DNA of 30,913 bases, from assembly GCA_018268695.1 (NCBI GenBank), contig JAFDWD010001082.1, forward strand, positions 1-30,913. The letters are read 5' to 3'. Positions within the stretch are counted from its first letter, which is position 1, and each line of letters starts with the position of its first letter. Below the pieces are notes generated by a model, which was not told the DNA's origin, did no database searches, and worked only from the letters and a program-made list of their open reading frames with translations. The stretch comes from Actinomycetota bacterium. Lineage in GTDB: Bacteria; Actinomycetota; Thermoleophilia; Solirubrobacterales; 70-9. Positions 2,460 through 29,190 of the stretch are shown here, one piece after another. The translations under genes were made by a program, and so were the position numbers.

Positions 2460-2477
2460 CCGGCGGGGGTGGGCGCC

Positions 2478-11300: not shown

Positions 11301-11312
11301 GGAATCGATTCC
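11301..11312. promoter_or_regulatory. LacI-type operator upstream of SDR 11327
   Basis: Perfect 12-bp palindrome GGAATCGATTCC with central CG, typical of LacI-family operators. It ends 14 bp before the GTG start of the SDR. Matches lie at 16852, 16940 and 29179, at or near the starts of the other catabolic units, so it is probably bound by the LacI protein encoded at 12119-13222. Confidence 0.7.
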
Positions 11313-11326
11313 TGTAGGCTGTTCGC

Positions 11327-12118
11327 GTGTCGTCCCCATCACACAGCGACCCTCTCTCGCTGGCCCGTGGCGTAGCCGACAGGGGGACGCTCGTCACCGG
11401 TGCGTCAGGCGCGATAGGAGCCGCCGTGGCCGCCGCCTTTGCTGCGGCCGGCGCCCGCTTGGTGCTGACCGATCTCGACCTGGGCGCGTTGGAGCGGACC
11501 GCCTCCGGACTGCCTCCCGCGGCCGAGATCCATCTGCTCCCATGCAATCTACGGGACGCGGGCGAGCGGATTGCACTGCTGGAGGGGGCGAGAGAGCGAC
11601 TTGGCCGGGTCGACTCGCTCGTACACACCGCGGCGGTGATCGTCCGCAGCCCAGACCTTGCCAGCGTCACCGACGCCGACTACGACCTGCAGCAGGAGGT
11701 GAACCTACGCGCCACCTTCTTCCTCGCTCGCGACCTGGCCAACCACATGCGCGAGGACGACGGAGGAGGGCAGATCACGCTCACCACTTCGCAGGCATGG
11801 TGGACGGGTGGCCTGGAAGGCTCGACGGTGTACGCCGCGACCAAGGGTGGTGTCGTCACCCTCACCCGCGGCCTCAGCCGCAACCTCGCCGCCGCCGGGA
11901 TCCGGGTCAACTGTGTCGCCCCGGGTGCGGTCGACACGCCGATGCTGCATGAGGACAGCGACCCGGCGAAGCTGGAGCAGTTGCGCAGCTCGATCCCCCT
12001 CGGCCGCTTCGCCGATGCCGCGGAGCTGGCCGGCGTATTCCTCTTCCTCGCCTCCGACCATGCCCGCTACATCACCGGCGCGACCCTGAACGTGACCGGT
12101 GGCCTGCTCGACTACTGA
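11327..12118 (+). CDS. Short-chain dehydrogenase/reductase
   Basis: 263-residue NAD(P)-dependent SDR, soluble. The cofactor motif is TGASGAIG (24-31), with D49 at the end of the second strand (VLTDLDL) favouring NAD. The usual NNAG is replaced by VHTAA (about 99-103). The catalytic set S155, Y169 and K173 (YAATK) is intact, and the C-terminus has the common GATLNVTGG motif. The GTG start lacks a clear ribosome binding site, and an operator-like palindrome ends 14 bp before it, so the transcript may have a very short leader. It is convergent with the LacI gene without a gap. It probably oxidises a hydroxyl of the imported sugar or a pathway intermediate. Confidence 0.9.
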   Translation: MSSPSHSDPLSLARGVADRGTLVTGASGAIGAAVAAAFAAAGARLVLTDLDLGALERTASGLPPAAEIHLLPCNLRDAGERIALLEGARERLGRVDSLVHTAAVIVRSPDLASVTDADYDLQQEVNLRATFFLARDLANHMREDDGGGQITLTTSQAWWTGGLEGSTVYAATKGGVVTLTRGLSRNLAAAGIRVNCVAPGAVDTPMLHEDSDPAKLEQLRSSIPLGRFADAAELAGVFLFLASDHARYITGATLNVTGGLLDY

Positions 12119-13222
12119 CTAGGAGCTGCTCGCGCCGCGTCGCGCATTCGACGGCGGTGCGCAGCTTGCGCGAAAGACGAATTCGGTCGGCAGGACGATC
12201 TGGCGCGGCGGCTGGTCGTCGCGCATCTGCTCGAGCAGGAGCTGGGCGGCCTTACGGCCGAGCTCGCGGTTGTCGCGGCGGACCACGGCGATCGGCGGCT
12301 CGAAGAACTCGGTGACCGAGATCGCGTCGCAGCTGACCAGCGAGAGGTCGTCGCCCACCTTGAGCCGGCGGGCGCGCAGCTCCGCCAGGGTGCCGCTGAT
12401 GAGCTGGTTGCCGCCGACGACGATCGCCGTCACCGGCGCGCGATCGTCCAGCATCCGCGCCGTCGCCTCGCGGCCGAACTCCTCGGTCAGGCTCTCCTCC
12501 AGCACCAGCGATTCGTCTACGAGAGAGCGTTCGGCGTAGGCTTCGCGCAGGCCGATCAGGCGCTCGCGCGAAAAGCGCAGGCTGGGTCCGAGGATCAGGC
12601 CGATCCGGCGGTGGCCGAGATCGAGCAGGGTGCCGACCGCGTTGCGCATGCCGTCGCGGTGTTCGGAGATCACCGAGCCGGCCTCGACCGCCGGCGGCAT
12701 CTCGCGGTCGATCAGGACGATCGGAATCTCCGTCTTCTCCAGCAGGTCGATCGTCTCCGGGTCGTCTTCGGCGGCCAGAGAGAGCAGCAGGCCGTCGACC
12801 CGCCGGCGGGTCAGCAGGCGCAGGTGGGCGGCGTCGAGGCTCGGCTTGTTTTCGGAGTTCATCAGCAACATGCTGTAACCGGCCTCGCGCAGGGTGGTCT
12901 CGGCCCCGAGCGCGATCGTCGAGAGCAGCGGGTTTGAGACGTCGCCGACGACGAACCCGACAGTGAAGGTGGCCCGCCGGCGCAGGCTCTGGGCAAGCAT
13001 GTCGGGCTGGTAGCCGAGCTCGTCGACCGCGCGCTCGACCCGCTCGCGCATCTCGTTGCTGACGTCGGGGTGGTGGGAGAGCACCCGCGAGACCGAGGAC
13101 ATCGCGACGCCGGCGTGTTCGGCGACCTCGCGCATCCCCGGCCGTTCGACCGCCCGCGCGCGGCGGCGCCCGGAGGCGCCATCGCTCGAGTTCCCTTGGC
13201 CCGTTCCGCTCGGCTCCGCCAT
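12119..13222 (-). CDS. LacI-family transcriptional regulator
   Basis: 367 residues. A Gly/Ser/Arg-rich leader precedes the LacI DNA-binding domain (about 30-82: MREVAEHAGVAMSSVSRVLS, then DVSNEMRERVERAVDELGYQPD and the hinge helix MLAQSLRR). The periplasmic-binding-protein-like effector domain follows (FTVGFVVGDVSNPLLSTI, NSENKP, RRRVDGLLLS, PIVLIDRE, GHRRIGLI, PVTAIVVGGNQ, DLSLVSCD). It is the last gene of the leftward operon 16799-12119, 27 bp after the SDR at 13250, so it is autoregulated if the operator at 16852 is its site. The four palindromes found in the island fit this family. The effector is probably the pathway substrate or an intermediate; which one is not visible. Confidence 0.94.
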   Translation of the reverse strand: MAEPSGTGQGNSSDGASGRRRARAVERPGMREVAEHAGVAMSSVSRVLSHHPDVSNEMRERVERAVDELGYQPDMLAQSLRRRATFTVGFVVGDVSNPLLSTIALGAETTLREAGYSMLLMNSENKPSLDAAHLRLLTRRRVDGLLLSLAAEDDPETIDLLEKTEIPIVLIDREMPPAVEAGSVISEHRDGMRNAVGTLLDLGHRRIGLILGPSLRFSRERLIGLREAYAERSLVDESLVLEESLTEEFGREATARMLDDRAPVTAIVVGGNQLISGTLAELRARRLKVGDDLSLVSCDAISVTEFFEPPIAVVRRDNRELGRKAAQLLLEQMRDDQPPRQIVLPTEFVFRASCAPPSNARRGASSS

Positions 13223-13249
13223 TGATCTAGCCTACCGAGCGCTTCCGCG

Positions 13250-14029
13250 TCAACCGACGCGCGGGCGGGAGTTCACGAACGCGTGCCGGATCGGCGACCC
13301 GCCGGGAGACTTGGCGATCGAGTAGCCACCGTCGACCGGAATCACAGCGCCGTTGACCGCCGCCGCCGCGTCGCCGGCGAGGAAGGCACACATCGCCCCC
13401 ACCTCGACCGGCTCGATCAGCCGCGCGGCCGGCGTCGCCGCCACCGCGAGCTCGCGGTCGACCTGCTCGTCGAGGAAGCTGGACGGCGTCCAACCGGCGG
13501 CGACCAGGTTGCAGGTGACACCGTGCGGGGCCAGCTCCATCGCCGCCACCTGCGCCAGCGTGCCCTCCATCGCCTTGACGATCCCGTGCGCGAAGCTGCC
13601 CGGGACGGTGCGCAGCCCGGCGCTCGTGCCGAGCAGGATCAGGCGGCCCGGCGCACCGCGCTCGATCAGGCGGCGGGCGACCCGCTGCATGCAGAGCAGC
13701 GCACCGCGCACGTCGACCTCGACGCAGCGCCGCAGCTCTGCCTCGCGGGTCTCGAGGAAGGAACCGAGGACGTGATGCGTGGCACCGGCGACGAGGACAT
13801 CGACCTCGCCCAGCTCGGCGACGACATCGGCGAAGGCAGCTTCGACCTGGGCGGGAACGCTGACGTCGGCGCGCCGGACGAGAGCGTCGAGGCCCTGCGG
13901 CTCGCCCGCCGTCCCGTCGTGCAGGACCGCGACCCTCGCCCCCTCGGCGGCGAACGCCGCGGCAACGGCGCGGCCGACCGGACCGGCACCCGTGACGACC
14001 GCGACGCGGCCCTCCAGACTGCCCGCCAT
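13250..14029 (-). CDS. SDR-family protein with substituted catalytic Tyr
   Basis: 259 residues from ATG 14029, which overlaps the TGA of the upstream SDR by one base. The fold is clearly SDR: GRVAVVTGAGPVGRAVAAAFAAEGARV at the N-terminus, VDVLVAGATHH in place of NNAG, MELAPHGVTCNLVAAGW, and a C-terminal GAVIPVDGGYSI. The cofactor motif is one residue short (TGAGPVG). The catalytic Y-x-x-x-K is H148-G-I-V-K152, with S136 in LLGTS; the Tyr is therefore His. It may be a degenerate enzyme, a lyase- or epimerase-like variant, or a structural partner of the SDR next to it. It is co-transcribed with the Zn dehydrogenase and the second SDR, so a role in the same pathway is likely. Confidence 0.85.
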   Translation of the reverse strand: MAGSLEGRVAVVTGAGPVGRAVAAAFAAEGARVAVLHDGTAGEPQGLDALVRRADVSVPAQVEAAFADVVAELGEVDVLVAGATHHVLGSFLETREAELRRCVEVDVRGALLCMQRVARRLIERGAPGRLILLGTSAGLRTVPGSFAHGIVKAMEGTLAQVAAMELAPHGVTCNLVAAGWTPSSFLDEQVDRELAVAATPAARLIEPVEVGAMCAFLAGDAAAAVNGAVIPVDGGYSIAKSPGGSPIRHAFVNSRPRVG

Positions 14030-14802
14030 CAGTGCTTCCCCACCACGAGCCCGCCGTCGACGCGGAGGTACTCGCCAGTCACGTAGGCGGCGTCCTCGGA
14101 GGCGAGGTAGGCGGCCGCCATCCCCAGCTCGCGCGGGTCCGCCGCGCGGCCTGCCGGGATCATCGCCACGGTCGCCTCGACATCCTCCTCGGTCAGCAGC
14201 GACGGTGAGGCATCGTTGATCGCCGACTTGACCCAGCCCGGGCCGATGTGGTTGACGGTGATCCCGTGCGGGGCGAGCTCGACCGCGGCCGCGTCGACCA
14301 TCGCCCGCATGCCGGCCTTGGTCGCACCGTAGATCGCCATTTCGGGGAACGGCATCTGCACGTGGACCGAAGAGGTGACGATGATCCGGCCCTCGCTGCC
14401 GGCATCGACCAGGCGCCGGGCGCCGACCTGACAGACACTGAAGGTGCCGATCAGGTTGGTGTCGATCAGCCGCCGCCAATGCGCCTCGTCGACGTCGACC
14501 ACCGGCTGCCAGCCGGCGACCCCCGCGTTTGCGCAGATCACCGTCGGCAGCCCCAGCTCGGCGATCGCATGCTCGAACAGGGATTCCACCTCCTCGCGCT
14601 TGCCGATGTCGGCCCGGTGCCAGATCGCCCGACGCCCGCCGGCGCGCAGTTCCTCGACCAGCTCCAGGCCTTCGCCTTCGGCGGAGCAGTCGTTGACGAC
14701 CACGTCACAGCCTTCCTCCGCGAGGCAGGTGGCGATGCCGCGACCGATGCCGCGTTCGCGCGCGGCACCGGTGACGACGGCAACTTTCCCTGCGAGACGC
14801 AT
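14029..14802 (-). CDS. Short-chain dehydrogenase/reductase
   Basis: 257 residues, a full classical SDR. The cofactor loop is TGAARERGIGRGIA (11-24), slightly longer than the standard TGxxxGIG. NAG is at 92-94 (CANAGVAG), SS at 144-145, and catalytic Y158 and K162 in YGATKAG. The end has VTGEYLRVDGGL. It starts at ATG 14802, sharing one base with the TAA of the Zn dehydrogenase (TAATG), and its own TGA shares a base with the next SDR start; the four genes downstream of 16799 therefore read as one operon. It probably acts as a sugar/polyol or hydroxyacid dehydrogenase with NAD(P). Confidence 0.92.
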   Translation of the reverse strand: MRLAGKVAVVTGAARERGIGRGIATCLAEEGCDVVVNDCSAEGEGLELVEELRAGGRRAIWHRADIGKREEVESLFEHAIAELGLPTVICANAGVAGWQPVVDVDEAHWRRLIDTNLIGTFSVCQVGARRLVDAGSEGRIIVTSSVHVQMPFPEMAIYGATKAGMRAMVDAAAVELAPHGITVNHIGPGWVKSAINDASPSLLTEEDVEATVAMIPAGRAADPRELGMAAAYLASEDAAYVTGEYLRVDGGLVVGKH

Positions 14803-15842
14803 TACCCGACGTTGACGATCGTCTTGATCGCGCCGTCCTCGCGGGCGACCTGGCGGCCGATCGCACCGCTCAGATCGTCGAGCGAGGCGTGGGTGGTGAT
14901 GATCGGATCGGTGTCGACGATCTTCTGCTCCAACAGCTTGATCGTACGCGGCCACTGGTTCGGGTACCACAGCGAGAAGCGGATCGTGCGGTCGGCGATC
15001 AGGCTGTCGAGCATCGGCACGGCGACGGTGTCGTCGGGGCCGGTGACGGCCATGAAGACGATCGTCGCCCCGGGGGCGCAGAGGCCGAAGGCCTCCTCGT
15101 TGGCGGCCAGTGAACTGGTCGAGACGATCACGCGATCGGCCAGCCGGCCGTACTGCGCTTCGATCTCCTCGGCGAGGCCGGCGCCGTCGCCGACATTGAC
15201 CGTGAGGTCGGCGCCGAGACCGGCACCGACGGCGAGGCGGTCGTCGCGGGTGCCGGCGAGGACGACGCACGCGCCCTTGTTCTTGGCCAGCTGGACCATC
15301 GCCAGGCCGACCGGGCCGGGACCGCTGATCAGGACCAGGTCACCGGGGTCGATCGCCGCCTTGTCGATGGCGTTGACCGCCGCCGCCAGCATCTCGACGA
15401 AGGCACCTTCGTCGTCGCTGATCGAGTCCGGCAGCTTGTAGGCGTGGGCGACGTTGGTCCGCGCCTTCTCGGCGAAGCCGCCGTTGGTGGTGACGCCGAG
15501 GACGCTGAGGTTGGCACAGAACTGCGGCCGGCCCGAGCGGCAGCCGTCGCAGCGGCCGCAGCTCTGGATCGGGTTGACGGCGACGCGGTCACCGATCTCG
15601 AGCGCCCCCTCGGGGACGGCGGAGCCGATGCCCGAGACGCGGCCCATGAACTCGTGGCCAAGGACGAGCGGGCCCTTGCCCGTCGCCGTCCCGACCGGGC
15701 TGCGCCCGTAGTAGTACTCGATGTCCGAGCCGCAAATGCCGACCGCGTCGACGTCGACGATGACGTCCTCGGGACCGAGCTCGGGCTCGGGGATGTCCTC
15801 GATGCGGACGTCCTCGGCCTCGTAGAAGACAGCTGCCTTCAT
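14802..15842 (-). CDS. Zinc-dependent medium-chain alcohol/polyol dehydrogenase
   Basis: 346-residue MDR family enzyme. Catalytic zinc motifs are ICGSD (about residues 36-40) and GHEFMG (62-67). A structural-zinc lobe with four Cys is present (CGRCDGCRSGRPQFC, about 94-108). The cofactor site is VLISGPGPVGLAMVQLA. The pattern fits the sorbitol/L-threonine/L-idonate dehydrogenase branch, which oxidises secondary alcohols of polyols or sugar acids with NAD(P). AGGAGAG lies seven bases before ATG 15842. It is second gene of the leftward operon, 27 bp after the TIM-barrel gene. Substrate assignment is not possible from motifs alone. Confidence 0.92.
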   Translation of the reverse strand: MKAAVFYEAEDVRIEDIPEPELGPEDVIVDVDAVGICGSDIEYYYGRSPVGTATGKGPLVLGHEFMGRVSGIGSAVPEGALEIGDRVAVNPIQSCGRCDGCRSGRPQFCANLSVLGVTTNGGFAEKARTNVAHAYKLPDSISDDEGAFVEMLAAAVNAIDKAAIDPGDLVLISGPGPVGLAMVQLAKNKGACVVLAGTRDDRLAVGAGLGADLTVNVGDGAGLAEEIEAQYGRLADRVIVSTSSLAANEEAFGLCAPGATIVFMAVTGPDDTVAVPMLDSLIADRTIRFSLWYPNQWPRTIKLLEQKIVDTDPIITTHASLDDLSGAIGRQVAREDGAIKTIVNVG

Positions 15843-15869
15843 CGTTCTCTCCTTTTCCTTTCCCGGGGC

Positions 15870-16799
15870 CTACGCGCCGCGGACGTGCTTGTCGAGGGCC
15901 TCGTCGAGCCAGATGCGACCGTCCCAGGTGTCGGCCCAGGACTCGCTCGTCATCGGGATCGCGTCGACCGCCCACCAATCGCCGTCGTAGCCGGACTCGA
16001 GGATCGCCGGAATCAGCGCGTCGAAGTCGATCACTCCTTTGCCGAAGCCGAGGTGGGTGCCGAAGGCGTTGCCCCAGGTGTTGGAGTCGGTGTCACAGAG
16101 GTGGACGTGGCCGATGTGGCCGGCGACCATCTCCACGAACTCGACCTGACCGCCCTCCAGTTTCTCGAACGGCTGCACCTGGTTGTGGGCAAGCACGGCG
16201 CCGGCCTCGACGTGGCCCACGTCGTAGAGCAGCTTGAAATTGTCGTCGCCGACGTCCTCGAGCAGCTTCACGACCTCCGACGGCTTGACGAAGATCTGCC
16301 CGGTCTCGTACTCCCAGAGCATCAGGACGCCCTCTTCGCGGCCGCGCTGGGCGTGCTTGCGGAAGGTCTCGACGACGCGATCCCAGGCCTGGTCGTAGTC
16401 GGCCTCGCGGGGGAGCGGGCCGAAGTCGCCCGGATCGACGCGCATCGCCGGACTGCCGATGTCGACGGTGAAGCGCAGGTGATCCTCGAAGAACTGGTCA
16501 TAGGCCTTGACCACGTCCTCGCCGCCGGTCGCCCAGGGCAGGCGGCCGAAGTCACCGTAGGGGCCGGGGGCGTAGCCGCAGACCTCGAGATCGAGGGACT
16601 TCACTTTCTCCACCAGTTGCTGCCGCGAGGCGCTGTCGGGGAAGCGCTCGATCGTTGCGTGGTCGAGGAAGCCGCCCAGTTCGACCCCGTCGTAATCGAA
16701 GGCCGACAGGACCTTGAGCGCTTGGTCGAGGGAGGGAACGGGGTCGAAGCCGAAGGCGACGCACCAGGTACCACGGCTGATCTTGGCAGTTCGTGACAT
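15870..16799 (-). CDS. Sugar phosphate isomerase/epimerase-type TIM-barrel protein
   Basis: 309 residues of the AP-endonuclease-2-like/xylose-isomerase-like TIM-barrel family. Conserved positions are FDYDGVELGGFLDH near the N-terminus, AMRVDPGDFG, LMLWEYETG (metal-binding E), FKLLYDVGHVEAG (metal-binding D and H), GHIGHVHLCDTD (H and D) and GFGKGVIDFDALI. These supply the divalent metal site of isomerases, epimerases and dehydratases such as IolE and hydroxypyruvate isomerase. It is first gene of the leftward operon; GAGGAGAG precedes ATG 16799, and a LacI-type operator lies 52 bp upstream. The neighbouring Gfo/Idh protein and dehydrogenases make a keto-sugar isomerase, epimerase or lyase role plausible. 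Confidence 0.88.
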   Translation of the reverse strand: MSRTAKISRGTWCVAFGFDPVPSLDQALKVLSAFDYDGVELGGFLDHATIERFPDSASRQQLVEKVKSLDLEVCGYAPGPYGDFGRLPWATGGEDVVKAYDQFFEDHLRFTVDIGSPAMRVDPGDFGPLPREADYDQAWDRVVETFRKHAQRGREEGVLMLWEYETGQIFVKPSEVVKLLEDVGDDNFKLLYDVGHVEAGAVLAHNQVQPFEKLEGGQVEFVEMVAGHIGHVHLCDTDSNTWGNAFGTHLGFGKGVIDFDALIPAILESGYDGDWWAVDAIPMTSESWADTWDGRIWLDEALDKHVRGA

Positions 16800-16851
16800 G
16801 CGGTCTATCTCTCCTCAGAGACGGCCCAAGGACATGCAATCCGGTGGGCTT

Positions 16852-16863
16852 GGAATCGTTACC
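16852..16863. promoter_or_regulatory. LacI-type operator, leftward operon
   Basis: GGAATCGTTACC, an imperfect palindrome identical to the copy at 16940 and close to those at 11301 and 29179. It lies 52 bp before the start of the TIM-barrel gene. Immediately next to it, 16864-16876, is a second near-palindrome GGGAACGTATCCC that may be a weaker tandem site. Both fall in the divergent promoter region between the two catabolic operons. Confidence 0.65.
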
Positions 16864-16939
16864 GGGAACGTATCCCAGATCGCGGCTAGAATGTCAAGCG
16901 GCCCCCAGGCTCCCCTTCTTGACAAGCCACAAACGCTCT

Positions 16940-16951
16940 GGAATCGTTACC
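16940..16951. promoter_or_regulatory. LacI-type operator, rightward operon
   Basis: GGAATCGTTACC, flanked by CT and AG so that the outer arms CTGG/CCAG are perfectly inverted. It ends three bases before the probable GTG start (16955) of the enolase-superfamily gene and would block transcription start if the leader is very short. Confidence 0.65.
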
Positions 16952-16954
16952 AGC

Positions 16955-18091
16955 GTGACCGCCACCGTCACCCGTGTGAGGAGTTGGACCCTGCGCCTGC
17001 CGCTGCCCACCCCGATTGCCCTGGGCCGGATGGCGGTCGCCGAGCGCGAGTACGTTGTCGTGCGGGTCGATGACGAGGACAGCGGTGCCGCCGGCGCGAG
17101 CTGGAGCCTGACCCGGGGCCTGCCGATCGCCGAGTCGCTCGACCGGCTGCTCGCCGAACGGGTGGTCGGGGCCGGGGTCGCCGACACCGCCCGCTTCTGG
17201 CACGAGGCGCTGAACGTCGCAGGCCCGGCGGGGCAGAGCGGCACCGCGATGCGGGCGTTGAGCTTGCTCGACATCTGCCTCTGGGACCTGAAGGCCCGCG
17301 TTGCCGGTCTGCCGTTGCACCGGCTGCTCGGCGGCCTGCGTCAGGAGGTGCCGGTGATGGCGATCAGCGCCTATCCGATCGTCGGCCTGATGGCCGACGC
17401 CGCCGGCGAGCGGCTGGCCGAGCTGCGCCGCGCCGGCCACGACCTGGTCAAGGCGGCCCGCTGGCCCGACCCGGCCGACACCGCCCGGCTGATCGCCCGC
17501 GCCGGGTTGCCGCCCGGGACCCTCGTCGTCGACGCCGCCTGGGCATGGGATGGCGCCTTCGCCGCCCTCACCGAGCTGCGCCGCTGGGGCGAGGTCGAGC
17601 TGGCCTGGCTCGAGGATCCGATCGCCGCCGGCCGCATCGATGCCTACCTGCAGCTGCGCGAGCGCTGCCCGCAGCCGCTCGGGGTCGGCGACGAGGTCTC
17701 CGACCTGCAGCTGCTCGACCGCCTCGTCCGCGAGGGGATCGCAGACGTGCTGCGCCTCGACGCGACCGTGGCCGGTGGCATCACCGGCATCCAGCGACTG
17801 CTCGACTCCTGCTGGCTGGCCGGCGTACCCGCCTCGCTGCACGTCGGGCTGCCGATCCACCTGCACCTGGCGGCCGCCCACCCCGCCGTCAACTACGTCG
17901 AGGCCTTCGTCGGCGAGGACCTCGCCCTCGACCCGGTCGAACGGCTGCTCGGCACGGCGCCGACGGTAGAGCGCGGCCGGGTCCGCGCCCCGGCCGGGCC
18001 CGGCCTCGGCTTCGAGCTCGACTGGGAGCAGGTCGAGGCGCGAGCGCACTTCCATACCGACACAGACAGACAAGGACAGGAGCCCCGATGA
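16955..18091 (+). CDS. Enolase-superfamily (mandelate racemase/MLE) protein
   Basis: 378 residues from GTG 16955; upstream in-frame sequence runs through the operators and is unlikely to be coding. The N-terminal capping domain is RVRSWTLRLPLPTPIALG and RALSLLDICLWDLKARVAGLPLHRLLGG. Barrel residues in order: K166 (VKAAR, where the superfamily usually has KxK), D193 (VVDAAWAWD), E220 (AWLEDPI), D246-E247 (VGDEVSD), D269 (LRLDAT) and H296 (SLHVGLP). The metal ligands D193, E220 and E247 and the D269-H296 dyad match the mandelate racemase subgroup (acid-sugar dehydratases and racemases). The missing second Lys makes the reaction uncertain. The stop overlaps the next gene (ATGA). Likely an acid-sugar dehydratase or epimerase in the pathway. 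Confidence 0.85.
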   Translation: MTATVTRVRSWTLRLPLPTPIALGRMAVAEREYVVVRVDDEDSGAAGASWSLTRGLPIAESLDRLLAERVVGAGVADTARFWHEALNVAGPAGQSGTAMRALSLLDICLWDLKARVAGLPLHRLLGGLRQEVPVMAISAYPIVGLMADAAGERLAELRRAGHDLVKAARWPDPADTARLIARAGLPPGTLVVDAAWAWDGAFAALTELRRWGEVELAWLEDPIAAGRIDAYLQLRERCPQPLGVGDEVSDLQLLDRLVREGIADVLRLDATVAGGITGIQRLLDSCWLAGVPASLHVGLPIHLHLAAAHPAVNYVEAFVGEDLALDPVERLLGTAPTVERGRVRAPAGPGLGFELDWEQVEARAHFHTDTDRQGQEPR

Positions 18092-19053: not shown

Positions 19054-19061
19054 TAACTTGA

Positions 19062-21836: not shown

Positions 21837-21847
21837 GAGGAACAACG

Positions 21848-23044
21848 ATGCCCGACGTCCCCATGCCCCGCCTCTCGGACTCGATGGAGGAGGGCACCGT
21901 CTTGCGGTGGCTGAAACAGGTCGGCGAAGAGGTCGCGCTCGGCGAGCCGCTTGTCGAAATCGAGACCGACAAGGCGAACATGGTCTACGAGGCCGACGTC
22001 GCCGGAACGCTGACGCAGATCGTCGTGGCCGACGACGAGGGCGCACCCGTCGGCAGTCCTATCGCCGTGATCGGCGAGCCGTCGCAGGCGCCGGCCGCGA
22101 CGACGGCACCGGCGGCAACGGCCGAGGTGGCATCTCCTGCGACCGAGGTCCAGAGCGCACCGAGAGACAGCGGGCGGATCAGGGCTTCTCCCGTCGCGCG
22201 AAGGCTTGCCAAGGACCAGGGCATCGACCTGGCCTCGATAGCCGGGTCGGCGCGTGGCGGAAGAATCGTGAAGCGGGACGTGAAGCAGGCCGCGGAAGGT
22301 GCCGGCGGCACGCCGGGAGCTGACTCCGGGAGCGCCGGGACCGAGACGGCGAAGGGTGCGGCGGAGGTCCAGGAGTTGACGAAGTTGCAGCAGGTGGTGG
22401 CGCGTCGGATGGCGGAGTCAAAGGCGACGGCGCCGCACTTCTATCTGGAAGCCGAGGTCGACATGAGCCGCGCGGTCGAAGCACGAGCGGCGATCAAGTC
22501 CGCGGCGAACGATGGCGACGTCGTCCCCTCCTTCAACGACATGGTAGTCAAGGCCTGTGCTTTGGCCCTGAAGGAATTCCCCAGGGCCAATGGCGCATAT
22601 AAGGACGGGCGCTTTGAGCTCTATTCGCGAGTGAACGTCGGCATCGCCGTCGCCGCCCAGGACGCATTGGTGGTCCCGACCCTCTTCGACGCGGACACGA
22701 AGGGCCTCAGGCAGATCGCCGTCGAGGCAAGAGCCCTGGCAACCAAGGTCCGCGAAGGAACGATCACCCCACCGGAGCTCTCCGGCGGCACCTTCACCGT
22801 CTCCAACCTCGGCATGTTCGGCATCGACTCCTTCAGCGCGATCGTCAACTCCCCGCAGGCCGGGATCTTGGCGGTGGGACGGATCGCCGAACGTCCCGCC
22901 GTGCGAAACGGGCAAATGGTCCCCGCCCAGCTGATGAACGTCACCCTCTCCTGCGATCACCGCATCCTCTATGGCGCCGACGGGGCCAAGTTCCTCGCCC
23001 GGGTCCGGCAGCTGCTGGAGGAGCCGGTCGGCCTGGCGCTGTAG
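21848..23044 (+). CDS. 2-oxoacid dehydrogenase E2 (dihydrolipoamide acyltransferase)
   Basis: 398 residues. Single lipoyl domain (about 1-77) with lipoylation site K42 in ETDKANM. An Ala/Pro/Thr-rich linker is followed by the E1/E3-binding domain (about 111-146, RIRASPVARRLAKDQGIDLASIAGSARGGRIVKRDV in two stretches), a second linker, and the catalytic acyltransferase domain (about 178-398) ending with CDHRILYGADGA, where H371 and the D378-G379 pair follow the HxxxDG-type motif. It transfers the acyl group from E1 to CoA. AGGAGG precedes ATG 21848. No E3 (dihydrolipoamide dehydrogenase) follows, so a chromosomal housekeeping E3 must serve the complex. Transcription ends at the hairpin at 23051. 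Confidence 0.94.
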   Translation: MPDVPMPRLSDSMEEGTVLRWLKQVGEEVALGEPLVEIETDKANMVYEADVAGTLTQIVVADDEGAPVGSPIAVIGEPSQAPAATTAPAATAEVASPATEVQSAPRDSGRIRASPVARRLAKDQGIDLASIAGSARGGRIVKRDVKQAAEGAGGTPGADSGSAGTETAKGAAEVQELTKLQQVVARRMAESKATAPHFYLEAEVDMSRAVEARAAIKSAANDGDVVPSFNDMVVKACALALKEFPRANGAYKDGRFELYSRVNVGIAVAAQDALVVPTLFDADTKGLRQIAVEARALATKVREGTITPPELSGGTFTVSNLGMFGIDSFSAIVNSPQAGILAVGRIAERPAVRNGQMVPAQLMNVTLSCDHRILYGADGAKFLARVRQLLEEPVGLAL

Positions 23045-23050
23045 GCGTTG

Positions 23051-23084
23051 CCGGGGCGGCGCCGCCGAGGCGGCGCCGCCCCGG
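23051..23084. terminator. Bidirectional hairpin between convergent operons
   Basis: Perfect 16-bp inverted repeat (CCGGGGCGGCGCCGCC and its complement) separated by two bases, seven bases after the E2 stop and directly abutting the stop of the Gfo/Idh gene on the other strand. No T-run. It very likely ends transcription from both sides. Confidence 0.8.
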
Positions 23085-24161
23085 TCAGGAGTTGGCGGGG
23101 GTGAGGTAGTCGGCGATCGCCCGGGGCTCGTCGAGGCGGGCGGAGTCGGCGAGGGCGAAGGTGAGGGCGATCGAGCGGAGATTGTCGCGGCCATTGGTCT
23201 CCGGAGCCCTGCCGCTGACGAGGCTGCGGTGGAATGCCTCGAGGACGTAGCTGCGGTCCTCGGGGGTGTCCATCGGGATCTCGGCTTCGAGCCAGCCGTT
23301 GCGCTCGATGAAACCGTCCATCTGCACCGCGAGCCAGGGCAGCTCGGGGCGGACGAGGACGCGATTGTTCACGAATTCGATCTGGCCTTCCTCGCACTCG
23401 ATGTACCAGTCGCCGTCGAAGGTGGTCTGGCGGCCGCGGGCGCCCCAGGAGCCGAAGTACTCGACCACGCCGCCGCCCTCGAGCTGCAGCACCGCGTTCA
23501 GCATCGGCGGGTGGCGGAACCAGCTCCAGCTCGGGTTGTAGCTGTGGCCGTAGACGACGGCGGGCTCGCATCGGAGCAGGCCGCGGATCTGATCGAGGTG
23601 GTGGATCGCCATGTCGCGGATGTACTCGTAGGCGGCGAACCCGTGGGGCTCGTCCGGCGTGACGAAGTGGAGCTCCTTGCGGTACGTGATGTTGGCGAAG
23701 CCGAGCGGGCCCAACCAGCCTTCCTTCATGATTCGCGCAACGACCTGAGCGGCGCGGCGGAAGCGGTAGTTCTGGCTCACCATCAGGGTCCTGTCCGCAG
23801 CCTCGGCGCGGCTGACCAGCTCCAGCGAGTTGGCCATGGTGTCGGCCAGCGGCTTCTCGATCAGCACGTCGAGGCCGGCCTCGAAAGCTTCGGTGGCGAC
23901 CGCCAGGTGACTGGCGACGGGAGTGACGATCAGCGCCGCGTCGGCCTCGACGGCCGCGGCCGCCTCGGCGAGGCCGGCGAAGCGGCGCTCGGCCGGGATC
24001 CCGTGCATCTCGCCCTGCTCGGCCAGCGCCTCCGGGTCGAGGTCGGCGATCGCGACCAACTCCCACCGCGGCGAGGAGACGATGCGCGGCACCCAGGTCG
24101 CTCCCCAGCCGTTGACGCCGACCTGGATGACCCTCAGCTTGACCTCTCCTGCACTACCCAT
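23085..24161 (-). CDS. Gfo/Idh/MocA-family oxidoreductase
   Basis: 358 residues. N-terminal Rossmann fold with VIQVGVNGWGATWV (11-24), IADLDPEAL, and the family signature EKPLA (102-106). The C-terminal Gfo/Idh/MocA alpha/beta domain includes RDMAIHHLDQIRGLL (HHLD at 187-190), where family members place the catalytic His. These NAD(P)-dependent enzymes oxidise sugars, inositols or glycosides, often at C3. ATG 24161 overlaps the ABC ATPase stop by 8 bp, with GGAGAG upstream. It is last gene of the leftward transport operon. Pairing with the TIM-barrel protein is reminiscent of inositol, levoglucosan or 3-keto-glycoside pathways, which is a suggestion only. Confidence 0.9.
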   Translation of the reverse strand: MGSAGEVKLRVIQVGVNGWGATWVPRIVSSPRWELVAIADLDPEALAEQGEMHGIPAERRFAGLAEAAAAVEADAALIVTPVASHLAVATEAFEAGLDVLIEKPLADTMANSLELVSRAEAADRTLMVSQNYRFRRAAQVVARIMKEGWLGPLGFANITYRKELHFVTPDEPHGFAAYEYIRDMAIHHLDQIRGLLRCEPAVVYGHSYNPSWSWFRHPPMLNAVLQLEGGGVVEYFGSWGARGRQTTFDGDWYIECEEGQIEFVNNRVLVRPELPWLAVQMDGFIERNGWLEAEIPMDTPEDRSYVLEAFHRSLVSGRAPETNGRDNLRSIALTFALADSARLDEPRAIADYLTPANS

Positions 24162-25674
24162 TGACCATCTCTCCTTTCGTCTGATCGCCCTTTTCCCCGG
24201 TCACCATCGCCAGCGACAGGACCTTCTCCTCGTCGAGTTCGTCGACCGACAGCTCGCCGGCGATCGCGCCGCGGCGCATCACCAGGACGCGGTCGGCGAC
24301 CTCCTCGAGCTCGTCGAGTTCCTGCGAGATCACGATCACCGCCCGCCCTTTGGCGGCGAGCTCGCGCAGCGCGATCAGGATCTGGGCGCGGGCGTCGATG
24401 TCGACTCCCTGGCCGGGCTCGTCGAGGATCAGCAGCTGCGCGTCGGTGTGCAGCCAGCGCGCGATCACCAGCTTCTGCTGGTTGCCGCCGGAGAGGAAGC
24501 GAGGCAGCGCCACCGCCGATCGCGGCTTGACCCCGAGGCGCTCGATCCACTTCATCGCCGCGCGGCGCTCAGCGCGGGGACGCAGCAGCCCGAGACGCGA
24601 GATCGACTTCGCCAGGGTCACGTTCTTGGCCGCGCCGAGATCGAGTAGCAGCGCGTCGCGCTTGCGGTCCTCGGGGACGAAGCCGACGCCGCGGTGGATC
24701 GCGGCGCGCGGCGAGCGCGGGCTGTAGGGCTTGCCGAGCAGTTGCATCTCGCCGCGGTCGGCGCGCTCGGCGCCGAAGATCAGCCGCCCCAGCCGTGAGC
24801 GCCCGGAGCCGACCAGGCCGGTGATCCCGAGCACCTCGCCGCGGTGGATATCGAAGTTGACGTCGTGGATCCGGCCGCCCTGGCCGAGGCCGCGGACCGC
24901 GAGCACGACCTCGCCCCGGGTCCGCGCCTGCGCCTCGATCTTGGTCACGTCGTGGCCGATCATGTGGCGCACCAGCGTCGTCTCGCTCTGGCCCTCGGCC
25001 GCGCCGCCGAACACGGTCTTGCCGTCGCGCATGACGAAGATGCGATCGGAGAGCTCGAGCACCTCGTCGAGGCGGTGGGAGATGTAGATGACCGCGACGC
25101 CGGCTTCGGTCAGCGAGTGGATCACCTCGAACAGGCGCAGGCTCTCGGTTTCGCCGGCGGCGGCGGTCGGCTCGTCCATCAACACGACGCGGCTATCGCG
25201 GTACAGGGCCTTGGCGATCTCCAACATCTGCTGCCCGGCCGGGCTCATCTCGCCGGCGGTCATCCCGATCCGATCGCTGAGACCGACCCGCTCCAGGCAC
25301 TCGCGGGCCGAGAGCCGCTCGCGGCGACGGGCCAGAAGCGCGTGGCGGTGCGTCGGCTCGCGGCCGAGCACGATGTTCTCGGCCAGGCCGAGGGTCGGCA
25401 CCAGGCTCGGTTCCTGGTAGATCGTGGCGACGCCGAGACGCTGGGCTATCCGCGGCGTCAGCCCATGCCGGACCTCGGCGCCGATCCGGATCTCGCCCTC
25501 GTCCGGTTGCTGAGCGCCGGAGAGGATCTTGATCAGCGTCGACTTGCCGGCGCCGTTGGCGCCGACCAGGCCGACGATCTCACCCTTGCCGATGTCGAAG
25601 TTGGCGCCGTCCAGAGCCGTCGTCGCGCCGAAGCGCTTGACGACACCGGTGGCGGCGAGGACCGTCTCGGCCAT
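24154..25674 (-). CDS. Sugar ABC transporter ATPase, duplicated NBD
   Basis: 506 residues with two ABC domains, as in RbsA/XylG/MglA (CUT2 family). Domain 1 has Walker A GANGAGKST (38-46), signature-like EMSPAGQQ and Walker B VVLMDEPTAA. Domain 2 has the usual degenerate Walker A GLVGSGRSRL, signature LSGGNQQK and Walker B LLILDEPGQGVDIDA, where most family members have EPTRGVD. It energises import with the permease at 28114 and binding protein at 26959, though it is separated from them by the mandelate-racemase-type gene. It starts 3 bp after that gene's stop. Confidence 0.94.
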   Translation of the reverse strand: MAETVLAATGVVKRFGATTALDGANFDIGKGEIVGLVGANGAGKSTLIKILSGAQQPDEGEIRIGAEVRHGLTPRIAQRLGVATIYQEPSLVPTLGLAENIVLGREPTHRHALLARRRERLSARECLERVGLSDRIGMTAGEMSPAGQQMLEIAKALYRDSRVVLMDEPTAAAGETESLRLFEVIHSLTEAGVAVIYISHRLDEVLELSDRIFVMRDGKTVFGGAAEGQSETTLVRHMIGHDVTKIEAQARTRGEVVLAVRGLGQGGRIHDVNFDIHRGEVLGITGLVGSGRSRLGRLIFGAERADRGEMQLLGKPYSPRSPRAAIHRGVGFVPEDRKRDALLLDLGAAKNVTLAKSISRLGLLRPRAERRAAMKWIERLGVKPRSAVALPRFLSGGNQQKLVIARWLHTDAQLLILDEPGQGVDIDARAQILIALRELAAKGRAVIVISQELDELEEVADRVLVMRRGAIAGELSVDELDEEKVLSLAMVTGEKGDQTKGEMVNG

Positions 25675-25677
25675 GGT

Positions 25678-26844
25678 CTATTGGTCCTCGACCCGGTACC
25701 GGTTGGCGTAGTCCCAGTCGAGCTCCCAACCCAGGCCGGGCGCCGAGGGCAGCGTCAGCTCGCCGTCGACCAGCTCGGGCCGGTTGGTGATCAGGTTCCA
25801 CCAGAAGGGATCGCGGTCCGGCTCGAAGCACTCGACGTAGGTGCCGTGCGGCTGGCTGGCGAGGAGATGGGCGGCGATGTGCGGCTCCTCGTGGTGCCCC
25901 ATCTGGACTTCGGCGGCGTGGGCGATGGCCGCCGTGCGCCGCCAGGCCGTCGGCCCACCGGACCAGGAGGCATCGAAGTTGCAGACGTCGATCGAACCGG
26001 CCTCGATCAGGTCGCGGCAGCCGCTCGGCGAGTACTCGCTCTGACCGGCGCAGACCGGGATCCCGCCCCGCATCCGCACGTCGCGCATGCCGCGGCGGTC
26101 GTTCTGCCAGCCGACCGGCTCCTCGAACCAGCGGATGCCGACTCCCTCGAGCAGGCGACAGAGCCGCAGTGCCTCGGCGGTCGTGTAGCCCTGGTTGGCG
26201 TCGATCGCGATCACGAAGTCATCGCCGGCTGCCTCGCGAGCTGCGATCACGCGCTTCGCGTCCTCCTCCGGAGAGAGGCCACCGACCTTGAACTTGATCC
26301 CCGCCATGCCGCTCTCGCGGTGACGGTGCATCTCTTCGGCCAGCTCCTCCAGCGAGGCCGGGTAGTAGCCGCCGATCACGATCATCGGCAGGCTCTGGCG
26401 GTAGCCGCCCCAGAGCCGCCAGAGCGGCTGGCCGAGCGCCTTGCCGACCAGGTCCCAGATCGCGGCGTCGAGGCCGGCGAGCGCGACAAGGCCGAGGCGA
26501 CGGTCGCGGAGGATGTCAAAGGTGACCGGGAACGCCGCCTCCCAGCAGCGCTCGACGGCGAAGGCGTCGAGGCCGCGGACGGCGGGGGCGATCTCCTCAC
26601 GGAGGATCCGGACGATCGCCGCGAGGCCGTCGTCCTCGTCGCCGGCGTAGGCCTCGCCGACGAGCCCCTCCTCGGTGATCACGCGGGTGATGACCGTGGC
26701 CCGGTGCGTCATGCGGTAGTGACTGCCGCGGTATTCGCGAGCGAGGGGAGCGCGCAGCGCGATCACCTCGATGTCACGGATGGTAAGCCCGTTATGAGTT
26801 TCCCCCGGGGCCGCCGTGCCGGTGCCTACGTTGTTGCTCTCCAT
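25678..26844 (-). CDS. Mandelate racemase/enolase-superfamily sugar-acid dehydratase-like protein
   Basis: 388 residues from ATG 26844; a GTG two codons earlier (26850) is possible, but AAAGG at five bases favours the ATG. Full mandelate racemase subgroup set: KFK (184-186) on strand 2, D215 (IDANQGY), E241 (FEEPV), E270 (AGQSEYS), D291 (NFDAS) and H317 or H318 (MGHHEE). Both the Lys base and the Asp-His dyad are present, unlike the paralogue at 16955. Family members dehydrate acid sugars to 2-keto-3-deoxy acids or racemise them. It is embedded between the binding-protein and ATPase genes, so substrate acid and transport are linked. Confidence 0.9.
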   Translation of the reverse strand: MESNNVGTGTAAPGETHNGLTIRDIEVIALRAPLAREYRGSHYRMTHRATVITRVITEEGLVGEAYAGDEDDGLAAIVRILREEIAPAVRGLDAFAVERCWEAAFPVTFDILRDRRLGLVALAGLDAAIWDLVGKALGQPLWRLWGGYRQSLPMIVIGGYYPASLEELAEEMHRHRESGMAGIKFKVGGLSPEEDAKRVIAAREAAGDDFVIAIDANQGYTTAEALRLCRLLEGVGIRWFEEPVGWQNDRRGMRDVRMRGGIPVCAGQSEYSPSGCRDLIEAGSIDVCNFDASWSGGPTAWRRTAAIAHAAEVQMGHHEEPHIAAHLLASQPHGTYVECFEPDRDPFWWNLITNRPELVDGELTLPSAPGLGWELDWDYANRYRVEDQ

Positions 26845-26904
26845 CTTCACCTTTCAAAGTGTTGGGTCCGCCACGTGCGCCTATGCCCTGCCATCACCCT
26901 GTGC

Positions 26905-26936
26905 CTGCCCGCGGCGACCGAATTCGCCGCGGGCAG
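26905..26936 (-). terminator. Strong hairpin after the binding-protein gene
   Basis: A 12-bp perfect inverted repeat (CTGCCCGCGGCG / CGCCGCGGGCAG) with an 8-nt loop, extendable with one bulge, about 22 bp past the SBP stop and about 60 bp before the next gene. There is no T-run, and the downstream genes are on the same strand, so it is more likely a partial terminator or mRNA-stabilising structure giving more binding protein than ATPase. Confidence 0.65.
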
Positions 26937-26958
26937 CACAGTGGTGTGTTACTGCTGA

Positions 26959-28041
26959 CTATTTACCGTCGGGACCCGCACATTTAGTGGTCTTGATCCA
27001 TTTTTCGACCAGCGCCGGGGTGGCTTCATACGGTTCGGATTTGATTTCGCCGGGGTAATTCAGGGCGAACGGGGTCGCGCAGATCTTTTCCGCGGCCGGT
27101 TCGCCGGCGATGTCTTCCGCCAGCAGGCGGACCGAGAGGGTCGCCTCCTGCGTCGGAGACGCACCGATGGTCACCTTGAGCTTTTCCTTTTCGAGCAGTT
27201 CGTTGCCGACGGGAGAACCGTTCTGCGAGGTGACGGCGACCTGGCCGATCTTCGAGCCGAGCGCCTGGACGGCGCCGACGGCCATGTCCTCGTTCTGGAC
27301 GATCAGGCCCTTCAGGTCGGGGTACTTGGCCATGATGTCCTGGGTCAGAGAGAAGGCCTTCGGGCGCAGGTATTCGCCGTCGACCTCCTCGACGATCCGA
27401 GAGGAGTCACCGAAGCCTTCGGCAAAGGCCTGTTTGAATTCGACGACCTCCTGACGACCCTCGAGGCCGGTGATCATCGCGACCGGGCCGGTGGGGACGA
27501 CTTCGGCAAAGGCTTCGCCGAGCACTTTCGCGTAGTCCATGAAGTGGACCGCGGCGTCACCGGCGATCATCGGCTGCACTTCCTTCAGCGGGATGATGCC
27601 GACGATGCTGATCGGGATGCCCGCGTCGTTGGCCTCCTTGACCGCGGCCTTCTCGCTGGCATCGCTGAGCGGGAAGAGGACGATGCCGTCGACTTGCTTG
27701 GTGATCGCGTCCTGGACGTTGGCGAGCTCCTTGCTCGGGTCGAGTTCGGAGTTGAGCACCTCGGGGGTGCCGCCCAGTACTTCGATCGCCGTCTTCGCGC
27801 CTTCGGCGGAGTACTCGTAGTATTCGAGCGAGCCGGTCTGTATGTAGGCGATGGTCTTGCCTTCCAGCGGCTTTTCGGTCGAGCCGGAGGGCGCTTCTTC
27901 TTCACTGCTGGTACTCGCTTCGGACGATGCCGAGCTCGACGAGTCGGAAGACGACCCACAGGCAGCGACGCCGATCGCGAGCGCCACTACCGCCGCCAGG
28001 ACGAACACCCAGCGTACGCTCTCTTTGAGTTTGCTATGCAA
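26959..28041 (-). CDS. Sugar-binding lipoprotein of CUT2-type ABC importer
   Basis: 360 residues from a TTG start at 28041, supported by GAGGAGGA seven to eight bases upstream. A basic N-terminus and hydrophobic stretch end in the lipobox VAAC (C28), followed by a long Ser/Glu linker (to about 56). The mature protein is a Peripla_BP_4-type binding protein (KTIAYIQTGSLEYYEYSAEGAKTAIEVLG, DAITKQVDGIVLFPLSDASEKAAVKEANDAGIP, GLIVQNEDMAVGAVQALG). It captures the substrate outside the membrane for the permease/ATPase pair. It is second gene of the transport operon, separated from the permease by a small terminator-like hairpin. Confidence 0.95.
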   Translation of the reverse strand: MHSKLKESVRWVFVLAAVVALAIGVAACGSSSDSSSSASSEASTSSEEEAPSGSTEKPLEGKTIAYIQTGSLEYYEYSAEGAKTAIEVLGGTPEVLNSELDPSKELANVQDAITKQVDGIVLFPLSDASEKAAVKEANDAGIPISIVGIIPLKEVQPMIAGDAAVHFMDYAKVLGEAFAEVVPTGPVAMITGLEGRQEVVEFKQAFAEGFGDSSRIVEEVDGEYLRPKAFSLTQDIMAKYPDLKGLIVQNEDMAVGAVQALGSKIGQVAVTSQNGSPVGNELLEKEKLKVTIGASPTQEATLSVRLLAEDIAGEPAAEKICATPFALNYPGEIKSEPYEATPALVEKWIKTTKCAGPDGK

Positions 28042-28066
28042 CTTCTCTCCTCCTCTTAGTTCTTCG

Positions 28067-28089
28067 AAAACGGGACCAGACTTGTCCCG
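28067..28089 (-). terminator. Small intrinsic-terminator-like hairpin between permease and SBP
   Basis: Read on the minus strand, CGGGAC, a 7-nt loop and GTCCCG are followed directly by TTTT. The stem is only 6 bp. It lies in the 72-bp gap between the permease stop and the SBP ribosome binding site; it could attenuate permease readthrough or belong to an SBP leader RNA. Confidence 0.45.
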
Positions 28090-28113
28090 GCCTGACGACG
28101 AGTCCCAACCTCT

Positions 28114-29103
28114 CTAGCGAGAGCCTCGCTGTGCCATTACTGCGACGATGATCACCATGCCCTGGATTACGTACTGCAGGTTTCCGGTGATCGACAAAAG
28201 GTTCAGTGCGTTGGCGATCAACCCCAGGAGGAGTACGCCGAGGATCGTCCCGAACACACCCCCGCGGCCGCCCGCGAGTGGCGTGCCGCCGACCGCGACG
28301 GCGGCGATCGCCGAGAGTTCGAGACCCGACCCCATGTCGGGTGAGGCCGCCGAGAGCTGCCCGACCATCAGCGCGGCGGCGATGCCGACGAAGAGACCGT
28401 TCAGTCCGTAGAGAGCGATCTTCACCCAGCTGACGCGGATCCCGGCCAGCTTCGAGGCGCTTTCGGAGCCGCCGATCGCGTAGAGCCAACGGCCGAAGCT
28501 GGTCATGCTGAGGACCAGGTGGACGGCGACCGCGCAGACGATGAAGGCGACAACCAGAAGTGGCAGGCCGAAGACGTGGCCGTCGACCCAGTCGAGGTAG
28601 GATTCCGGTAGTTCGCTGATCGGCACGTTGGAGATCAGCAGCGCGACACCCTGCAGCAGGGTCAGCATCCCGAGGGTGAGGATGAAGGGGTGCGAGGTGG
28701 AGAAGGAGACAAGGGTCCCGATCGCCAGCCCGACCAGGATCGCCAGCAGCACCCCCGCCCCGATTGCGGCGATCACCGACCAGCCGTGGGTCATCAAGTA
28801 GCCGGTGGCGACCCCGGTCAGGGAGACGGCTGACCCGATCGACAGGTCGATCCCGCCCGAGACCATCAGCATCGTCGTCCCGCAGGCAAGGATGCCGACG
28901 ATCGAGACCTGGACGAGGATATTTTCGAAGTTCTGCCAGGTGAAGAACACGTCCGAGCCGGACGCGGCGATCACAACGATCAGCCCGATCACCGTCAGGA
29001 GCGCGAACTTCGAGCGGTGAGCCCGCGCGAAGGAGCCGAACCCCCGGACACCAAACCCGGCGGCTAGACCTCGCGCCTCACCAACAGCGTCTTCCGTCGA
29101 CAC
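28114..29103 (-). CDS. Sugar ABC transporter permease (RbsC-like)
   Basis: 329 residues from GTG 29103, chosen because GAGGAGG sits five bases upstream; an ATG at 29172 would add 23 residues without such a site. It is a BPD_transp_2 (CUT2) permease with about eight to ten hydrophobic helices. Family marks are ILACGTTMLMVSGGIDLSIGS, the segment SFGRWLYAIGGSESASKLAGI (AIGGNxxAAxLSGI in the family) and AVAVGGTPLAGGRGGVFGT. It forms the channel with the ATPase at 24154. It is first gene of the leftward transport operon, with a LacI-type operator 76 bp upstream. Confidence 0.94.
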   Translation of the reverse strand: MSTEDAVGEARGLAAGFGVRGFGSFARAHRSKFALLTVIGLIVVIAASGSDVFFTWQNFENILVQVSIVGILACGTTMLMVSGGIDLSIGSAVSLTGVATGYLMTHGWSVIAAIGAGVLLAILVGLAIGTLVSFSTSHPFILTLGMLTLLQGVALLISNVPISELPESYLDWVDGHVFGLPLLVVAFIVCAVAVHLVLSMTSFGRWLYAIGGSESASKLAGIRVSWVKIALYGLNGLFVGIAAALMVGQLSAASPDMGSGLELSAIAAVAVGGTPLAGGRGGVFGTILGVLLLGLIANALNLLSITGNLQYVIQGMVIIVAVMAQRGSR

Positions 29104-29178
29104 CTTCTCCTCCTCAATTCCCACTAGTTGACGGGACCCCGCTTCCCGATTCCTGGAAGCGATTTCGGGCACGATACC

Positions 29179-29190
29179 GCAATCGATTCC
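29179..29190. promoter_or_regulatory. LacI-type operator upstream of transport operon
   Basis: GCAATCGATTCC differs at one position from the perfect palindrome at 11301. It sits upstream of the permease gene, 76 bp before the chosen GTG, placing the import operon in the same regulon as the catabolic operons. Confidence 0.6.

Follow-up and report, generated by a model that had tools for sequence, protein, structure and literature searches.

Which reaction could end an oxidative sugar pathway whose genes are clustered with those of a 2-oxoacid dehydrogenase? The question is raised by a stretch of 30,913 nucleotides (the window; contig JAFDWD010001082.1, assembly GCA_018268695.1) from a bacterium of the Solirubrobacterales, in which a catabolic island occupies positions 11327-29172. 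Pfam and NCBIfam matches of the open reading frames (ORFs) of the window showed that the island encodes three short-chain dehydrogenases (SDR1 to SDR3), a Zn-dependent medium-chain dehydrogenase (MDR), a Gfo/Idh/MocA oxidoreductase, a TIM barrel protein, two enolase-superfamily proteins (ENO1 and ENO2), a hydrolase of the metallo-β-lactamase (MBL) fold, the E1α, E1β and E2 proteins of a 2-oxoacid dehydrogenase complex, a CUT2 importer and regulators of the LacI and IclR families. All gene classes named in the first-pass annotation, a short note made from the letters alone, are present and in frame; its inventory had omitted the regulators, LacI (12119-13222, minus strand; PF00356, PF13377) and IclR (19071-19889, plus strand; PF01614, PF09339). 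Its remark that kinase, aldolase and fumarylacetoacetate hydrolase (FAH)-type genes are lacking also stood: among the window ORFs scanned, shorter ORFs being left unscanned, no Pfam match to FAH (PF01557), sugar aldolases, sugar kinases, dihydrodipicolinate synthase (DHDPS)-family aldolases/dehydratases or the dihydrolipoamide dehydrogenase component (E3) was found. With a probability of about one half, the island encodes a non-phosphorylative oxidative pathway for a sugar or polyol that ends in a dedicated 2-oxoacid dehydrogenase.

The genes of this presumed dedicated complex lie on the plus strand and encode E1α (19876-20859; PF00676, 2.1e-72 on the longer ORF 19486-20859), E1β (20856-21836; PF02779, PF02780) and an E2 with lipoyl, E3-binding and catalytic domains (21848-23044; PF00364, PF02817, PF00198). 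They close a run of ENO1, MBL, IclR, E1α, E1β and E2 (∼16955-23044), in which gene ends overlap or are separated by fewer than 20 bases. The catalytic motifs of E1 and E2 are intact. E1α contains the thiamine pyrophosphate (TPP) motif GDG...NN and the sequence GHSRSDP, PISE and QHSQ are kept in E1β, and E2 has the lipoyl site ETDKA and the catalytic motif DHRILYG, whose Y is a D in many of the compared E2s. The residues of the E1 motifs are presumably those for TPP and the catalytic Glu and His. An E3 is commonly shared between complexes, and therefore the missing E3 gene does not exclude a working complex.

Searching 399 genomes of the class with the E1α profile (A2) at E ≤ 1e-130 yielded 15 loci in 12 genomes, namely L001 and 14 fetched stretches. 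In a midpoint-rooted E1α tree of 32 rows, the window protein and these 15 loci formed one group with a support of 100/99; the control E1 of L057, which is cut by a contig end, was present in the first tree and absent from this one. A draw across the phylum returned E1α in 3/396 genomes, two of which were already in the class set, and the third (G800) fell outside the clade. By its sequence the window E1 thus belongs to a separate clade, in which E1β typically reads QHSQxxENW, a stretch that might shape the substrate pocket. Genome G001 carries four further E1αβ/E2 operons, one of them adjoining a lipoamide-dehydrogenase-like ORF (by eye), at 38-47% E1 identity; their E1α proteins are 38-46% identical to that of the window and are found elsewhere in the tree. 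Therefore the clade E1/E2 is not the sole copy, and the earlier proposal of a dedicated complex is borne out as far as a distinct clade is concerned.

The neighbourhood of the clade E1 carries most of the argument. In the locus counts given here, the short search loci L007-L015, L025-L048, L059-L070, L085 and L091-L096 are excluded, and L101 and L102 are outside the 15 clade loci. In a PF13378 search of the 12 genomes, 12 of the 15 loci had an enolase-superfamily gene no more than 10 kb away from E1. By chance, a locus would have such a gene with a mean probability of 0.045 if all 105 PF13378 matches are counted and of 0.034 if the 26 weakest are dropped and 79 remain; the corresponding binomial tails, calculated with the largest per-locus value, are 2e-12 and 7e-14 and overstate the strength because the loci are related. 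The three misses are L072 and L081, on contigs below 5 kb, and L074, whose nearest enolase gene is separated from E1 by 11.6 kb. Using tblastn with ENO1 and ENO2, no such gene was detected at eight non-clade E1 loci, three of which are stretches of only 8-10 kb. It is concluded that E1 and enolase genes co-occur in other genomes far above chance. Outside the clade, L101 (E1 54% identical) also has ENO1-, ENO2- and LacI-like genes near its E1.

Relatives of ENO2 itself (63-66% identity) are found at six clade loci (L001, L071, L073, L078, L079 and L082), and six further loci have other enolase-superfamily genes (26-34%). SDR1 relatives (48-56%) occur at 7/15 loci (L071-L074, L076, L078 and L079), directly upstream of E1α at five, and LacI relatives (47-64%) at six. 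The CUT2 ATPase with the permease, a second Gfo family and an amidohydrolase like that of L079 are each present at 5/15. E2 adjoins E1β at eight loci, including a fragment (L074) and one copy cut by the contig end (L081), and at two (L073 and L076) the contig ends beside E1β. The recurring core is ENO2/SDR1/E1; E2 mostly accompanies it, and a CUT2 importer, a Gfo protein and LacI often do. It is clearest in L079, where one strand encodes an ATPase, two permeases, a binding protein, Gfo, an amidohydrolase (PF04909), ENO2, SDR1, E1α, E1β and E2, followed by LacI on the opposite strand; L078 has the same arrangement. This gene order is the order of the reactions proposed below. The best PDB sequence matches of the L079 amidohydrolase are 4dlf/4dlm/4dnm/4do7, which we take to be the L-fucono-1,5-lactonase of Burkholderia, and those of its Gfo protein include glucose-fructose oxidoreductase and scyllo-inositol/L-glucose dehydrogenase.

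In the window, ENO2 (25678-26850, minus strand; PF02746, PF13378 5.1e-56) is encoded inside the transporter run. It is very close (∼590 bits) to 3msy/3no1/4h83, solved structures bearing only the superfamily name. The positions KxK, D, E, E, D, H and E are invariant in 7/7 sequences and presumably correspond to the catalytic positions of acid-sugar dehydratases of the mandelate racemase type, so that ENO2 is a candidate for such an enzyme. ENO1 (16955-18091, plus strand, start uncertain), the first gene of the E1/E2 run, was assigned by NCBIfam and PDB matches, the latter with 2og9 and 3ozm, and has a 42% identical relative near an E1 in L101. An assignment as L-talarate/galactarate dehydratase is not supported for either protein, the scores being 167.9 (ENO2) and 125.8 bits (ENO1) against an NCBIfam cut-off of 500. 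SDR1 (11327-12118, plus strand; PF13561 1.3e-51) is a candidate for the enzyme that dehydrogenates the 2-keto-3-deoxy acid at C4.

Within the limits of the contigs, no FAH gene was found within 80 kb of E1 on the same contig at any of the 15 clade loci, and the family is present elsewhere in 12/12 genomes; the nearest match to a clade E1 is 82 kb away (G142). This search is less far-reaching at some loci, because seven of the 15 are on contigs of 3.8-87 kb. A DHDPS-family gene (PF00701) lies within 10 kb at one locus (in G001), the other aldolase families being unsearched in the relatives.

In the available text of two accounts (PMC6336799, PMC13406643), Route III for L-fucose, L-rhamnose and pentoses proceeds by a dehydrogenase, a lactonase, a dehydratase, an SDR 4-dehydrogenase and an FAH hydrolase, and the former describes Route I, with an aldolase, and Route II, with a dehydration to 2-oxoglutarate. 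Compared with these descriptions, the clade loci would have the 2-keto-3-deoxy acid formed by an acid-sugar dehydratase in common with Routes I and II, but the DHDPS family is near E1 at a single locus. With Route III they would share the predicted enzyme classes through the SDR step, and they resemble it in the presence of a regulator and an ABC sugar importer in the cluster, in an amidohydrolase of L079 that is similar to 4dlf/4dnm and in the enzyme order of L079; they differ from it in the FAH position, which is taken by E1, mostly with E2. Relative to Routes I-III as described there, the E1/E2 ending appears to be new. Beside the E1/E2 block of L001, positions 743-8007 contain an aldose-epimerase-like ORF (by eye) and enolase-superfamily, DHDPS-family and aldehyde-dehydrogenase-like genes, a group that resembles a separate Route II module.

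From these gene families, motifs and neighbourhoods we infer every reaction, the reaction order, the substrate and the specificity of E1. The CUT2 importer would take up a sugar or polyol, which one or more of the dehydrogenases would oxidize. The lactone would be opened by a lactonase-like hydrolase, MBL in the window and the amidohydrolase in relatives, after which ENO2 (perhaps ENO1) would act as the dehydratase of the enolase superfamily that forms a 2-keto-3-deoxy sugar acid. SDR1 probably oxidizes C4 of this acid between the dehydratase and E1, a step that is suggested by the best relatives and that the first-pass order of oxidation, lactone opening, dehydration and decarboxylation had left unplaced. 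The substrate of E1 would be the 2-oxoacid produced by the dehydratase, directly or after this C4 oxidation, and the dedicated E1αβ/E2, with the general E3 of the cell, would convert it to an acyl-CoA by oxidative decarboxylation and would stand where the described routes have an aldolase, a second dehydratase or an FAH hydrolase. More tentatively, SDR1 would yield a 2,4-dioxo acid and E1/E2 a 3-oxoacyl-CoA, which general thiolases may split into acetyl-CoA and a hydroxyacyl-CoA, a fourth fate of 2-keto-3-deoxy sugar acids.

Several observations weigh against this pathway. At five of the 15 clade loci (L077, L080, L082, L083 and L084) E1β has no adjoining E2, and in L084 an E2 is present with a second, non-clade E1 set ∼8 kb further on; E1 at the loci lacking E2 might act without CoA transfer. 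ENO2 is not tied to E1: close ENO2 proteins were found in 6/396 genomes of the phylum draw, and a clade E1 adjoins ENO2 in G001 alone, with a more distant E1 in one other (L101). No E1 was found in the ∼20 kb of L098 and L099, and L097 and L100 are on contigs below 9 kb. The SDR1 gene of the window is not adjacent to E1, and the best 60 PDB chains for the SDR1 profile are mostly FabG-like; 4z9y is labelled 2-deoxy-D-gluconate 3-dehydrogenase, and none of the 60 is labelled 2-keto-3-deoxy acid 4-dehydrogenase. In G001, the DHDPS-family gene and an aldehyde dehydrogenase gene are located ∼6-8 kb from E1/E2, and therefore a known route could operate beside the cluster. No thiolase gene (PF00108) was found within 10 kb of E1 at the 15 loci, the nearest being 11-12 kb away at one of them (G113:C1), and the fate of the acyl-CoA is therefore not encoded with the cluster. 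Finally, the 15 clade loci share ancestry and are hence not independent.

Three further arrangements were observed around these genes. In L077 (432-2918), L080 (8212-10667) and L083 (8309-11051), a VOC/glyoxalase-fold gene stands beside E1αβ, with no E2, and an E2-independent use of E1 is possible there. In L098 (9294-11654), an ENO2 orthologue (64%) adjoins an ORF that resembles CitE/HpcH (by eye); Gfo and CUT2 genes are present there, and E1 is absent. In L079 (16510-19000) and L078 (369-3320), ORFs resembling 3-oxoadipate CoA-transferase and protocatechuate 3,4-dioxygenase genes (by eye) are separated from E1/E2 by a few kb.

A third run of the island, on the minus strand (16799-13250), encodes what was called module B: a xylose-isomerase-like TIM barrel protein, a putative isomerase/epimerase or lyase (15870-16799; PF01261), the MDR, a predicted polyol/sugar dehydrogenase (14802-15842; PF08240, PF00107), SDR2 (14029-14802; PF13561 1.3e-56) and SDR3 (13250-14029; PF13561 1.4e-39). 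TIM homologues were found on six genome contigs and are rare, being present in 5/399 genomes of the class, four of which the loci had already revealed, and in 1/232 of the order (G001). In L003, L004 and L016, stretches of 12 to 20 kb, TIM, MDR, SDR2 and SDR3 occur without E1/E2. SDR2 relatives (51-64%) are located near TIM/MDR in these loci and in L001 and are followed by SDR3 at 34-56%. Judged by this distribution, TIM-MDR-SDR2-SDR3 is a separable front module, through which another substrate would enter the shared pathway. The TIM structure was predicted with confidence (pLDDT 87); its fold is common to many sugar isomerases and IolE and therefore names no substrate. By sequence, the nearest PDB entry of the MDR is sorbitol dehydrogenase. 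An inositol pathway is not supported: MDR and TIM are in the same superfamilies as IolE and the inositol enzymes IolM and IolO of Thermotoga, but all scores are far under the curated NCBIfam cut-offs (MDR-IolM 163.1 of 450, TIM-IolE 35.1 of 290 and TIM-IolO 19.8 of 300 bits). In L002 (2811-8569), a TIM homologue (71%) is found near a distant E1αβ (39/44%) and a cupin-like ORF, with no E2. The record of L003 is titled as a Bifidobacterium breve metagenome-assembled genome (MAG), although its genome G003 falls in the class of G001, and the title is probably wrong.

Because ENO2/SDR1/E1 recurs without TIM/MDR/SDR2/SDR3 and vice versa, the window probably does not encode one linear pathway, and in this respect the first-pass pathway did not hold; the E1 clade next to enolase genes above chance and the failure to find an FAH gene nearby support other parts of it. 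The separate recurrence of the two blocks would also be expected if two unrelated clusters abut here, TIM/MDR/SDR and E1/E2/ENO2, acting on different substrates with no common intermediate. This is considered unlikely. In a Solirubrobacteraceae MAG, another genome, both blocks are joined in a single run in one direction (L001: TIM, MDR, SDR2, SDR3, E1α, E1β, E2, ENO2 and LacI, with 72, 66, 64, 56, 67, 66, 45, 64 and 52% identity, respectively) downstream of an MBL homologue (52%). Moreover, the genes that separate TIM from E1 in the window are ENO1, MBL and IclR, and contigs of equal size (21507 and 1060899) among the TIM and E1α homologues listed suggest linkage, which they do not prove. The neighbourhood search proposed earlier thus found much of the gene set conserved together, but its blocks also recur separately.

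The other two alternatives concern the complex itself, whose E1α, E1β and E2 domains and catalytic motifs are also those of the pyruvate/acetoin type. If it were an extra, co-regulated pyruvate dehydrogenase (PDH), the sugar would be converted to pyruvate by enzymes encoded here or elsewhere and E1/E2 would form acetyl-CoA. E1β passes the cut-off of the NCBIfam PDH E1β subfamily model (344 bits, cut-off 321), which counts against a dedicated complex; the best PDB match of E1α is human PDH E1α, and the best NCBIfam model of E2 is PDH E2, though under its cut-off (352.1 bits of 445). E1α, however, is below both PDH equivalog cut-offs (327.7 bits against 393.85 for one of them), the window ORFs scanned showed neither an aldolase that would produce pyruvate nor an FAH hydrolase, the relatives have no FAH near E1 and a DHDPS-family gene at one locus only, and the other E1/E2 operons of G001 could serve pyruvate. 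An extra PDH is regarded as improbable, though as the likeliest of the three alternatives. Slightly less likely than abutting clusters is a reaction like that of acetoin dehydrogenase, in which an α-ketol or diketone (acyloin) made by MDR, SDR and TIM would be cleaved to an aldehyde and an acyl-CoA without decarboxylation. The four dehydrogenases of the window could form ketols, and among the 120 E1α homologues listed, of at least 7,999 scored in environmental sequence, many carry from their source the name acetoin:DCPIP oxidoreductase or pyruvate/acetoin dehydrogenase. The acetoin names seem automatic, however, and the E1 clade is most often accompanied by an enolase-superfamily gene and not by the MDR/TIM module. 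From complexes of the pyruvate/acetoin type the window complex differs by its separate E1 clade, by its cluster with genes of the sugar-dehydratase type and in that no E3 was found among the window ORFs scanned.

The importer belongs to the minus-strand run (29172-23085) of permease (28114-29172; PF02653 5.9e-40), sugar-binding lipoprotein-like protein (26959-28041; PF13407 8.6e-30), ENO2, ATPase (24154-25674; PF00005 in two stretches) and Gfo/Idh/MocA oxidoreductase (23085-24161; PF01408 3.8e-14), the last being a candidate first dehydrogenase. The two PF00005 stretches, PF02653 and PF13407 identify a CUT2 importer. Its ATPase scored 433 bits with an AraG-like model, under the cut-off of 689, and its binding protein is of the ribose-binding-protein family, with 2gx6 as the nearest PDB entry. 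Upstream of the island are genes for an MFS transporter (9830-11092), an MgtC/DUF4010 protein, a two-component pair and PurK.

The MBL-fold hydrolase (18088-19053, plus strand; PF00753 2.6e-21), a candidate lactonase, has the metal motif HxDxDH instead of HxHxDH. The same motif is kept in relatives in L001 (8101-9057; 52%), L005 (12106-13020; 38%) and two haloarchaeal clusters (L022 12001-12936 and L023 12001-12942; both 34%), and this family is common to actinobacteria, a planctomycete MAG and haloarchaeal plasmids. In the two haloarchaea, MBL adjoins genes for rbsD, ribokinase, deoC, GH88, an SDR, an enoyl-CoA hydratase and an AMP-binding protein.

A second sugar context of E1/E2 was observed on alphaproteobacterial plasmids. 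In L086 (14591-20751), L088 (8571-13238), L089 (8583-13317) and L090 (8603-14764), a gene for an NAD(P)H-dependent oxidoreductase or homoserine dehydrogenase is followed by E1α-E1β-E2, with Lpd in two, and three of the four loci adjoin sugar-uptake genes. The rhizobial clusters L086 and L090 resemble the window in having E1/E2 within a sugar-transport cluster and consist of an NAD(P)H-dependent oxidoreductase, E1α-E1β-E2-Lpd and a sugar importer. They differ in that their E1α is 48-49% identical and in another branch of the tree, the importer is annotated as another type and no enolase gene is listed in the annotated stretch.

If the proposed pathway is right, oxidative sugar pathways possess an ending of their own that feeds acyl-CoA directly, and some of the many E1 proteins that bear the label pyruvate or acetoin dehydrogenase in environmental sequence carry the wrong name. 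The solved structures 3msy/3no1/4h83, the listed names of which give no function, would gain a physiological context, and the compact L079 cluster offers a set of enzymes that can be tested stepwise in vitro. Should the fourth fate be true as well, the route from sugar carbon to acetyl-CoA would involve no phosphorylation, no aldol cleavage, no FAH hydrolysis and no pyruvate intermediate.

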